DNA of 34,761 bases from Candidatus Fermentibacterota bacterium (lineage in GTDB: Bacteria > JAFGKV01), in contig JAFGKV010000300.1 in NCBI GenBank assembly GCA_016928395.1, positions 1 to 34,761 of the forward strand, in the 5' to 3' direction. Below the pieces are notes generated by a model, which searched no databases, had not been told where the DNA came from, and saw only the letters and a list, made by a program, of their open reading frames with translations. Position numbers and translations under genes: made by a program. Shown one piece after another: positions 31,926 through 34,625 of this stretch (positions are counted from its first letter, which is position 1; each line of letters opens with the position of its first letter).

Positions 31926-33311
31926 TCAGATGCCCAGGAGTATCTTGGCTGTGGTGAAGTAGATCAAGAGCCCCGTGATGTCCACTGCGGTGGTCAGGGC
32001 GGGGCTGGCAACCACCGCCGGGTCGAGTTTGGCGCGGGCCGCCGCCAAAGGCAGTACCGCGCCGATCAGGGTCGAGGTTACCACCTGCAATCCCAACGCA
32101 ATCGCGATGGCGATACCGATTGTCGCCAGAGGGTAGTTCAACGGCATACTGGAACCGCCGCCGAACAGCACTACCCTGCCGAACGCGAGCATACCGAGCA
32201 GCAGCGCGAGCAGAATCGCCACCTGGAACTCCTTGAAGAGGATGCGCAGGGCATCCCTCGGTGCGATCTCTCTGAGTGCCAGCGCCCGAATCACGAGGGT
32301 GGCCGACTGGCTTCCAGTATTGCCTCCCGTATCGGCCACCATGGGCATGAACGCCGCCAGGATAGCGAACTGCATCAGCAGGCCCTCGAAACTCTGGACG
32401 ATGAACCCGGAGACCAGGCCCAGCACCGCCAATGCCGCCACCCACGGCGCGCGGTTCCTGAAATGCACCCAGGGAGGGGTTCGCATATACATCGCTTCCT
32501 CGTGGCTACCGGCGATGGCCATGAATTTCTCCATGTCCTCGGTGTGTTCCTGGGTGATGATGTCGATAGCATCGTCATACGTCACGATTCCCACCAGGGC
32601 ATCAGCGCCATCGATCACGGGCAACGCGAGCAGGTCGTACTTCTGGATCTTGCGCGCTGCATCTTCCTGGTCGTCGTCCACCCGGGCGGACACGGCATCG
32701 CGGTGCATCAGATCACTCACCCTCGCATCCCGCTTGGCGACGATGAGATCCTTGAGAGACACAAAGCCCAGGAGCCGGCGATTCTCATCCACGACATAGG
32801 CGTAGTAGATGGTCTCTCGATCCGGTGCGATCTCCCGGAGGCGCTCTATGGCCTGTGCGGCGGTCAGGTGCGGGCCCAGGGTGGCATAATCCGAGGTCAT
32901 GGCCGCGCCGGCGGTTCCTTCCTCGTACGAGGCCAGACGGCGGATATCCTCCCGTTCCGCCTGGGCCAATGCGGGCAGCACGGCTTCGCGACTATCCTCA
33001 GGCAGGCGCCTGAACAAATCGGCCCGATCATCCGGCGGCATCTCCGTCATCAGGCGAGCAATGTCTTGGCGATGGAGGGTCGCGATTATGTCGGCTTGGA
33101 TATCGTCGGCCATATGGCTGAAGATCTCGGCGCGAAGAGGCAGATCGGCGTGCGTGAGCACGGCCCAGGCATCTTCCTCCGAAAGCGCGGACGCCAACTC
33201 GGCCACGACGGCGGGATGAAGGGTTTCGCAGAAATCACGGAGTGCGTCGGTGTCCCCACCCGCGAGCATCGTGCGGAGCTCGGGGACAAGAAGAGGATTC
33301 TTCATCGTCAT
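31926..33311 (-). CDS. mgtE: MgtE-family magnesium transporter
   Basis: 461 residues. A helical N-domain (about 20-135) with RLPEDSREAVLPAL is followed by tandem CBS domains (about 140-265), which sense intracellular magnesium in the family, and a C-terminal five-helix channel domain with the signature ADTGGNTGSQSATLVIRALALREI. The protein is a dimeric Mg2+ channel. Minus-strand ATG 33311 lies four bases after AGGTGA; a second ATG at 33305 is spaced ten bases. That Shine-Dalgarno is buried in a long hairpin, and a promoter-like pair lies about 250 bp upstream, so the leader may control expression. Confidence 0.93.
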   Translation of the reverse strand: MTMKNPLLVPELRTMLAGGDTDALRDFCETLHPAVVAELASALSEEDAWAVLTHADLPLRAEIFSHMADDIQADIIATLHRQDIARLMTEMPPDDRADLFRRLPEDSREAVLPALAQAEREDIRRLASYEEGTAGAAMTSDYATLGPHLTAAQAIERLREIAPDRETIYYAYVVDENRRLLGFVSLKDLIVAKRDARVSDLMHRDAVSARVDDDQEDAARKIQKYDLLALPVIDGADALVGIVTYDDAIDIITQEHTEDMEKFMAIAGSHEEAMYMRTPPWVHFRNRAPWVAALAVLGLVSGFIVQSFEGLLMQFAILAAFMPMVADTGGNTGSQSATLVIRALALREIAPRDALRILFKEFQVAILLALLLGMLAFGRVVLFGGGSSMPLNYPLATIGIAIAIALGLQVVTSTLIGAVLPLAAARAKLDPAVVASPALTTAVDITGLLIYFTTAKILLGI

Positions 33312-33359
33312 GGTTCACCTCTCTTTCGGCCGCGACGCGGGGGCGGCCGGAGGTGAACC
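33312..33359 (-). promoter_or_regulatory. RBS-sequestering hairpin in the mgtE leader
   Basis: On the mRNA (minus) strand GGTTCACCTC (33359-33350) pairs perfectly with GAGGTGAACC (33321-33312), which contains the Shine-Dalgarno and abuts the ATG. CGGCCGC (33349-33343) pairs with GCGGCCG (33333-33327). A 5-base bulge AAAGA sits on the 3' side and a 9-base loop caps it. The total is 17 bp, very GC-rich. Translation would need this stem opened. Confidence 0.7.
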
Positions 33360-33559
33360 GGCAGGCTATGCTTCGATCGAGCGCCGGCAGTTCACATCAC
33401 CAGCCCCGCAACACAGGCATCGGGGGCCAGAGTCGTCAGTTTTGTGGTTCGTCTCCTGGGTCATCCGGCGGCAACTATGGCCACCATCCGAGTCACCCAC
33501 GGCGATTTCTCCTGTTGGTGTAGGTCGTGAGCGCTCCCCGCGCTCGTAAGGGTCGCGAC

Positions 33560-33588
33560 ATAGTACACAGCACACCCCCCGAGGGCAA
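33560..33588 (-). promoter_or_regulatory. Candidate promoter for mgtE
   Basis: On the minus strand TTGCCC (33588-33583), a 17-bp spacer and TACTAT (33565-33560) resemble a sigma-70 promoter (4 of 6 bases in each hexamer). Initiation about 7 bp further on would give a leader of roughly 240 nt before the mgtE start. Confidence 0.45.
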
Positions 33589-33693
33589 CCCCGAGATGGC
33601 GTCTCAGCGGCTCCCATCCGCGTCGTATAATCCGCCTTGCTACGGCGGTCGCAGATCATCCTTGTCCGTCGCGGGCTGGTGTCGTGGTGGTCT

Positions 33694-33719
33694 CAGGGCC
33701 ACGTCACCACGTGGCCTTG
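33694..33719. promoter_or_regulatory. Strong 11-bp hairpin with tetraloop
   Basis: GGCCACGT (33697-33704) and ACGTGGCC (33709-33716) pair perfectly around CACC, extended by G-T, A-T and C-G pairs to 33694 and 33719. The following TGTCCC is not a T-run. Orientation and function are unclear: it could act as a leader structure for the FGE-like gene or as an inverted-repeat binding site. Confidence 0.4.
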
Positions 33720-33812
33720 TCCCACGGTCTGCGCGGATAGCCTGAGCCCAGGAAGATGGGCCGACGCGGAACAAGGACGATTAGGCCAGGTGTTTCATGG
33801 TAGATCAGACCC

Positions 33813-34625
33813 TTGTGCGCGGGCATCTCCCCGCGTACGGCACCCGAGGTTCTCGGGGTGGGCGGGGTTGACTTGGTCTCGCACCCCACCCCTACCCTTG
33901 CCATCTTGACTGCGAAGTGCGTGGCAAGGACAGAGATCGGGAAGAGTTCGCGCTCACCGTGGCCCATGGCCGTGACGGTGGGTTCCTTCGTCATGTCTAC
34001 GTATGAAGTGACCCAGGCTGAGTATCAGGATGTCATGGGCACGAATCCATCGCACTTCCCTGGGGCAGAGCGGCCGGTGGAGCGGGTGACATGGTGGAAT
34101 GCGGCCTTGTTCTGCAACGCACTGAGTGTGCGGGAGGGCCTCACCGCCTTCTACAACGATGGCGATCTGACCGCCCAGGGAGACACGGTACGCATGGATT
34201 GGAGTGCAGACGGGTATCGACTTCCCACGGAAGCGGAGTGGGAGTATGCGTGCCGCGCCGGGACGACCACTGATTTCTACAGCGGCAGTCAATCATCGTC
34301 TCGCCATGATCAGAACATGGATCTGATTGGGTGGTACTGGTTCAACTCAGAATGGAGTCCGCAGGATGTGGGGCAGAAGCTGCCGAACGCCTTCGGTGTG
34401 TACGACATGAGTGGAAACGTGGCGGAGTGGTGTAATGATCGCTTCGGAGCCTACTCAGCCGAGAGTCAGACCGATCCCCATGGCCCCACGTTCGGCGCGA
34501 GCCGACTCACGCGGGGAGGGAGTTGGTACAACTACCCCCAGGTCTGCCGCTCGGCCAATCGCGACCAGTACCATCCCAGCCAGGCCTACTACACGGTGGG
34601 CTTCCGCCTCGCGCGGAGGCAATGA
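33813..34625 (+). CDS. SUMF1/FGE-sulfatase-fold protein with abnormal N-terminus
   Basis: From SFVMSTYEVTQAEY through GTNPSHFPG, RPVERVTWW, GYRLPTEAEWEYACR, FGVYDMSGNVAEWC, RGGSWYN and GFRLARR this is a formylglycine-generating-enzyme-fold domain. The catalytic cysteine pair of true FGE is absent: near the end only one Cys occurs, in VCRSANR. So it is probably a structural or binding member rather than a sulfatase activator. The usual lead-in (GGTFxMGS-like strand) is replaced by TEIGKSS, and no signal peptide is visible. Start is uncertain: TTG 33813 opens the frame, while the first ATG, 33966, would cut into the domain. An upstream frameshift or truncation is possible. Confidence 0.68.
   Translation: MCAGISPRTAPEVLGVGGVDLVSHPTPTLAILTAKCVARTEIGKSSRSPWPMAVTVGSFVMSTYEVTQAEYQDVMGTNPSHFPGAERPVERVTWWNAALFCNALSVREGLTAFYNDGDLTAQGDTVRMDWSADGYRLPTEAEWEYACRAGTTTDFYSGSQSSSRHDQNMDLIGWYWFNSEWSPQDVGQKLPNAFGVYDMSGNVAEWCNDRFGAYSAESQTDPHGPTFGASRLTRGGSWYNYPQVCRSANRDQYHPSQAYYTVGFRLARRQ

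Follow-up and report, generated by a model that had tools for sequence, protein, structure and literature searches.

Acidic upstream reading frames and a Shine-Dalgarno-sequestering hairpin precede mgtE and mgtA genes and probably form a ribosome-sensing attenuator of Mg2+ uptake

The mgtE gene on a 34,761-nt contig of a Candidatus Fermentibacterota bacterium (GCA_016928395.1, JAFGKV010000300.1; the whole analyzed stretch is denoted as the window) is preceded by a short upstream open reading frame (uORF) and by a hairpin that sequesters the mgtE Shine-Dalgarno (SD) sequence, and among the leaders compared the two elements are linked, in fixed order and spacing, to Mg2+ transporter genes. Judging from these sequences, the leader is probably a translational attenuator for Mg2+ uptake that combines a ribosome-sensing leader peptide with the SD-sequestering hairpin. 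The translating ribosome is the likely sensor, because the acidic uORF stops 6 nt short of the hairpin, travels with it, and also precedes MgtA-type pumps. With a confidence only somewhat above even, we propose that these peptides (MSDSDGSHSC...[D/E][D/E]PGPR...) represent an old and widespread class of Mg2+-sensing leader peptides, which would act via ribosome instability and SD-hairpin switching on two unrelated transporter families in about ten phyla. In enteric bacteria, acidic leader peptides that are very short have already been demonstrated to sense Mg2+. If this is true, nascent-chain Mg2+ sensing would be general rather than an enterobacterial speciality, and the presence of a distinct peptide family before both MgtE and MgtA makes it testable whether ribosome stability serves as a widespread bacterial Mg2+ gauge.

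Hairpin over the mgtE Shine-Dalgarno sequence

The mRNA from 33359 to 33309 on the minus strand reads GGUUCACCUC CGGCCGC-CCCCGCGUC-GCGGCCG AAAGA GAGGUGAACC AUG. The outer stem of 10 bp (GGUUCACCUC/GAGGUGAACC) abuts the AUG at 33311 and holds the SD of mgtE (GAGG) in its 3' arm, and past a 5-nt bulge (AAAGA) on the 3' side lies an inner stem of 7 bp (CGGCCGC/GCGGCCG) closed by a 9-nt loop. When the 71-nt piece containing the hairpin was folded, its energy was -31.3 kcal/mol compared with -19.0 ± 2.8 kcal/mol for 200 dinucleotide shuffles (z -4.4), none of which equalled it, and the optimal fold of the 361-nt leader retained the hairpin. The first-pass annotation, which described a 17-bp hairpin locking the SD up to the ATG, was exact in this respect. 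It had also seen no M-box in the leader, and this was borne out by Rfam covariance models, which gave no match to the M-box (ykoK leader) over the whole window at the gathering score. Neither the M-box nor the mgtA leader Mg2+ sensor matched in 33290-33800 even at E-values up to 10, and searches of the window leader and seven relatives at gathering and permissive E-values returned nothing relevant. The coordinates of all features are collected in Table 1.

Table 1. Features of the mgtE leader in the window
Feature	Position	Strand	Basis
mgtE, 461-aa Mg2+ channel/transporter	31926..33311	minus	Pfam MgtE_N, CBS pair, MgtE domain
Sequestering hairpin	33359-33312	minus	10 + 7 bp, 5-nt bulge
Inner 3' arm GCGGCCG + bulge AAAGA + strand C = GAGGTGAACC with mgtE SD	33312..33333	minus	fold, covariation
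Strand B: hairpin 5' arm (GGTTCACCTC + CGGCCGC)	33343..33359	minus	fold, covariation
uORF/leader peptide, 44 codons + TAG, GTG start: MGDSDGGHSCRRMTQETNHKTDDSGPRCLCCGAGDVNCRRSIEA	33366..33500	minus	conserved position in most close mgtE relatives
Strand A: uORF part holding GTGAAC (33395-33390), SD-arm copy predicted to pair with the 5' arm; putative anti-sequestrator	33382..33409	minus	duplex -21.7 kcal/mol
Internal acidic-proline motif DDSGPR ([D/E][D/E]PGPR in relatives), proposed ribosome-destabilising site 2	33420..33437	minus	alignments A2, A3
uORF N-terminal acidic codons (Asp3, Ser4, Asp5), proposed ribosome-destabilising site 1	33486..33494	minus	acidity counts in relatives
uORF SD (AGGAGA)	33508..33513	minus	sequence; anti-SD duplex -7.4 kcal/mol
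Possible promoter: -35 TTGCCC (33588-33583), 17-nt spacer, -10 TACTAT (33565-33560)	33560..33588	minus	by eye, weak

For comparison, we assembled 148 mgtE leaders from named genomes and whole-genome searches and inspected the sequence preceding each mgtE start. The stretch between the uORF stop and the mgtE start folded with a median z of -3.2 in the 46 uORF-bearing leaders (70% below -2), whereas the median was +0.3 in 82 control mgtE leaders (7% below -2). In an alignment of 26 leaders, 87.5% of the cells of a 16-pair structure were paired and both sides had changed in 11 of the 16 pairs, compared with a shuffled mean of 4.8 and with none of 500 shuffles as high; while these counts used the structure named from the window fold and hence lean towards it, the slid controls do not pair, as pairing fell to 36-51% when one arm was moved by 1-3 columns. 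RNAalifold run on a MAFFT alignment recovered only the outer stem (9 pairs), because loop lengths vary. The hairpin usually starts 5-12 nt past the uORF stop, a distance that is near-constant in most leaders. Among the leaders compared, compensatory changes preserve the hairpin in close mgtE relatives of about ten phylum-level groups, and distant mgtE genes lack it. The pairing of strands B and C is therefore strongly supported by covariation in orthologous leaders, the lack of which had been named in advance as evidence against a switch.

The hairpin element occurs in a single copy in its own genome, and the idea that it is a dispersed operator or a repeat element was rejected on this ground. 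The arm word GGTTCACCTC by itself has 30 genomic occurrences, compared with 6 of the reversed control, an excess that probably reflects SD-plus-spacer sequence. On the other side of the leader, a formylglycine-generating-enzyme-like (FGE-sulfatase) protein is encoded divergently from mgtE at 33813-34625 on the plus strand.

Acidic upstream ORF before mgtE and mgtA

Most of the leader, whose length of about 240 nt had been given in the first-pass annotation, is a conserved uORF that the annotation had missed. In the window, the uORF runs on the minus strand from a GTG at 33500 to a TAG at 33366, 6 nt ahead of the hairpin. A short ORF with its own SD is found before nearly all mgtE genes whose products are at least 51% identical to that of the window; in these relatives, it starts about 150-210 nt and usually stops about 50-85 nt before mgtE, and its length across the leaders is about 30-46 codons. 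Examples of the peptides are MSDSDGSHSCQHMTQKSTQNEVDEPGPRWFGFVVCDLSGRRSLQT (L049, a deltaproteobacterial MAG), MSDSDDSHSRPDMIRESASERTEDHPAPRRLSHAARNVNGCLRA (L042, Fermentibacter) and MNDDDGPCACLLTIIDTLTKKFTGPRLSGAIPVLVNTPRPLTR (L059). They share an acidic N-terminus with the consensus MSDSDGSHSC, where Asp is most often at positions 3 and 5, and in the alignments many carry an acidic-proline run, [D/E][D/E]PGPR, near codons 22-28; the acidic runs themselves are short (Asp-x-Asp).

The initial selection of uORFs had used acidity as a criterion, and it was repeated without it, so that the uORFs counted here were picked by SD strength, start codon and stop position irrespective of acidity. At least two Asp or Glu residues at positions 2-6 were present in 29 of 58 close-MgtE leaders and in 0 of 52 distant ones (Fisher p 1.8e-10, a nominal value as related leaders are non-independent). 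The pN/pS ratios support coding in L048-L050 (0.13-0.43) and L062/L066 (0.35) but are about 1 or higher in other pairs, and protein-level constraint is patchy. Within the uORF, constraint seems to be stronger at the start, in the acidic parts and at the stop than elsewhere. As such, the case for the uORF rests on its position, start, stop, SD, acidity and a blind profile search, and not on dN/dS.

Two kinds of variant were observed. Upstream of position 2501 in L041, a uORF with MNNSDGSHSCQ at its N-terminus lacks an in-frame stop ahead of mgtE and enters the gene out of frame, through either genuine variation or an error in the sequence. At the spirochaete loci L156, L160, L161, L163 and L167, MgtE is 45-47% identical and the shorter uORFs start with MEDG, MDDG or MEGG; they may represent another branch of this system.

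The possible promoter of the window matches the consensus at 8 of 12 positions, which is below the scanner threshold, and it would put the transcription start near 33553, making the leader length of about 240 nt plausible. Among 46 leaders, 13 have a consensus-like sigma-70 promoter in the 140 nt upstream of the uORF, compared with 4.8 expected. The leader is thus probably transcribed from well upstream, as far as these motifs indicate. Transcription starting inside the hairpin, which would remove the upstream arm and had been named as another ground against the switch, seems unlikely given the uORFs and the sigma-70-like promoters upstream in relatives.

In the blind search, a profile of 23 uORF peptides was run against six-frame translations of 395 Desulfobacterota genomes with neighbours ignored. 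Among 16 matches below 2e-4, nine lay at mgtE, six lay upstream of Mg2+ P-type ATPases and one was false; the profile had included some of the nine mgtE peptides and none of the six mgtA peptides. The six mgtA-linked matches (L188, L191, L197, L198, L199, L201) are in genomes other than those with the mgtE matches, and their downstream ATPases are best matched by NCBIfam TIGR01524, with four full-length copies scoring 1071-1085 against a cut-off of 611. When a further sample of 376 genomes was searched with the profile plus the mgtA peptides, one new strong match was obtained (L219), before an mgtE 66% identical to that of the window. All matches below 1e-6 in both genome samples precede an Mg2+ transporter gene. 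MgtA and MgtE are unrelated proteins and have only Mg2+ transport in common. As for the rejected candidates, the L200 match has an internal stop within an apparent infB and was taken as false, and L220 from the 376-genome sample is a weak match inside a long frame that was taken as chance. The profile found no second copy of the uORF in the window's own genome.

The order in the mgtA leaders is the uORF, the same hairpin, a small second ORF and then mgtA, and the hairpin was kept in all six when they were folded. By reading, the stop of the second ORF overlaps the mgtA ATG as ATGA in L188, L191 and L198, and it lies about 17 nt before the mgtA ATG in L197. In the mgtA leaders, the target of the hairpin would be the small second ORF, which terminates at or close to the beginning of mgtA. 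Although well conserved in L199 and L201, the hairpin is not followed there by an obvious ATG after the SD arm, and an ATT start or a role at the level of transcription is possible. The second ORF of L188 and L191 opens like MgtE (MKNPFIVPGF and VKNKHPLFIP; weak match with E 0.013 for L188), resembling a leftover MgtE N-terminus. Given this resemblance, mgtA may have come to lie behind an old mgtE leader, and translation may be handed on by coupling.

Proposed switch and alternative explanations

To release the SD, strand B would need another partner than the SD arm C, and such a partner is predicted within the uORF. A copy of the SD arm is often situated towards the 3' end of the uORF, in frame and at 24-36 nt from the stop codon, as GTG AAC in the window, L042, L056, L058, L059, L071, L125 and L129 and as GTGAAT in L053 and L133; in L046, where arm B has AGTCAC, the uORF has GTGATT and by eye the pairing is retained. 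With the reservation that the leaders in these tests are not independent, uORFs paired better with their own B than with swapped partners (mean -15.2 vs -14.0 kcal/mol; permutation p 0.0005) and better than after synonymous recoding (mean z -0.83, Fisher p 2e-6). SD-arm hexamers numbered 10 in the last 45 nt of the uORF against 4.3 expected, and 5 against 5.1 expected further upstream. The cost of opening the SD was 8.5 kcal/mol on average in 20 leaders when A was free and 12.8 kcal/mol when A was covered, and the corresponding values in the window were 7.3 and 12.8 kcal/mol. The advantage of A:B pairing is little or absent in some leaders (L048-L050, L060, L061 and L063). Considering these results, there is moderate support that segment A can replace the SD arm C as the partner of B.

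Based on the two pairings, the attenuator would work as follows. At low Mg2+, the early acidic codons and the later acidic-proline run, both of which lie upstream of strand A, would make ribosomes drop off through intrinsic ribosome destabilisation. The abandoned A, with its freed GTGAAC, would then pair with B, the mgtE SD would be exposed and MgtE would be made. When Mg2+ is ample, the ribosome would read through, cover A until B:C pairs and stop 6 nt before the hairpin, and mgtE would be off. High Mg2+ has been reported to counteract the ribosome destabilisation caused by early acidic nascent chains (PMC9718836), and two acidic residues are not always sufficient for destabilisation (PMC11282234). 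We infer the sensing, the drop-off and the sign; a switch that is on at low Mg2+ suits an importer.

The near-constant distance of 5-12 nt between the uORF stop and the hairpin means that a terminating ribosome would touch the base of the stem, and coupling of the opposite sign is conceivable on that ground: a ribosome finishing the uORF would melt the hairpin base and aid the mgtE start, and drop-off would lower MgtE. We regard this as unlikely, since it yields less importer at low Mg2+, the SD core is deep in the stem, the A copy of the SD arm is left unexplained, and the mgtL and corL leaders repress upon efficient uORF translation (PMC11552253). A true riboswitch, where the leader RNA binds Mg2+ or another ligand and moves the hairpin, with the uORF as a passenger or an additional input, is rather improbable. 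Although a Thioalkalivibrio 'mgtE motif' candidate with the SD and AUG at the stem base has been classed so (PMC11109978), the Rfam aptamers are unmatched in the window leader and seven relatives, conservation upstream of the hairpin is of the reading-frame type (start, acidic N-terminus, stop), and the peptide profile alone retrieves the elements.

The uORF might also stall in response to a signal other than Mg2+, such as drugs that target the ribosome, charged tRNA (Pro, Cys, Asp), or the activity of EF-P or EttA. Ribosome pausing can also be caused by PGP motifs and acidic codons, and Salmonella mgtP senses charged tRNA-Pro (PMC8092293), but the downstream genes here are Mg2+ transporters of two unrelated families and the most conserved part of the uORF is acidic rather than a run of a single codon, and we consider such sensing quite improbable. 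That the long GC-rich inverted repeat beside the start codon is a palindromic DNA operator or an RNA thermometer is hardly credible, as the arm sequence drifts yet keeps its complementarity to an SD arm that also changes, a 5-nt bulge and a loop of variable length make the hairpin asymmetric, a stem of -31 kcal/mol is too stable for a thermometer, and the linked uORF is explained by neither. From the earlier proposal of a new translational switch, the locking of the SD without an M-box holds up by fold, leader comparison and covariation, whereas the kinds of switch put forward with it (a Mg2+-sensing RNA, a thermometer or a trans-acting factor) are not the best reading, given the conserved acidic uORF that travels with the hairpin and also precedes MgtA-type pumps.

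Comparison with known leaders and taxonomic spread

The proposed ribosome-sensing attenuator shares features with the mgtL and mgtQ systems, namely an SD-bearing uORF before a Mg2+ transporter gene and acidic residues, together with prolines, among its first ~30 codons. As in mgtQ-mgtB of Salmonella, early Asp/Glu codons in the uORF are combined with a stem-locked transporter SD, an alternative stem and action at the level of translation, both of which are predicted for the present leaders (PMC8092293); the Asp2/Glu5 codons of the 8-codon mgtQ favour the alternative stem that frees the mgtB SD (PMC8092293). While mgtQ is located inside an operon (mgtC-mgtB) and has been reported from a few proteobacteria (PMC8092293), the present uORFs of about 30-46 codons stand in a true 5' leader of mgtE (and mgtA) in about ten phylum-level groups. 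In mgtL-mgtA of E. coli and Salmonella, acidic and proline codons are likewise near the uORF start and low-Mg2+ ribosome destabilisation, which is inferred for the present leaders, raises the transporter (PMC11282234, PMC11552253), with the EPDP of MgtL destabilising ribosomes at low Mg2+ in enterics (PMC11282234). However, mgtL acts by Rho-dependent transcription termination, whereas the present leaders appear to target the SD of the next gene. The peptides of mgtQ and mgtL have no recognisable sequence relation to those described here. The present leaders likely work like mgtQ/mgtL, with a peptide that is different and longer, a different transporter and a much broader distribution.

Translation of the uORF would be inverse to Mg2+ transporter expression, as in the corL-corA leader (PMC11552253), although corL is Rho-based and has few acidic or proline codons, unlike the present leaders (PMC11552253). 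The mycobacterial translational M-box resembles them in Mg2+-related leader control of Mg2+ genes and in a conserved small ORF (PMC12810186); the M-box (ykoK leader) is, however, an ion-binding aptamer, unmatched here, and the mycobacterial small ORF is the regulated target and not the proposed sensor (PMC12810186). In a 2024 survey, the 'mgtE motif' riboswitch candidate SRC-65-1, with 32 representatives in Thioalkalivibrio only, is placed before mgtE and has a covarying stem whose base holds the SD and AUG, as in the present leaders; it is called a riboswitch there, and the text mentions no uORF (PMC11109978). Compared by description only, it may be the same kind of element, and the acidic-uORF model offers a different reading of this orphan candidate. 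Among the open-access papers searched, we found no description of the uORFs of these leaders.

The uORF-bearing records, with the taxon labels of MAGs taken as named, include Planctomycetota, Fermentibacter, UBP14, deltaproteobacteria, Spirochaetes and Aminicenantes, as well as a clostridial MAG, Hyd24-12, Marinimicrobia, Hydrogenedentota and Ozemobacter. When G000 was compared with G001 and G002, the mgtE of the window was missing from the same-genus genome (82% complete), and the same-family genome had only a 32% identical mgtE, with 70-75% identical copies in other phyla; transfer of the window mgtE along with its leader may account for this pattern. The Phycisphaerales contig L040 carries a fluoride riboswitch (Rfam E 2e-11) at 1328-1395, which is about 1.1 kb ahead of its mgtE.
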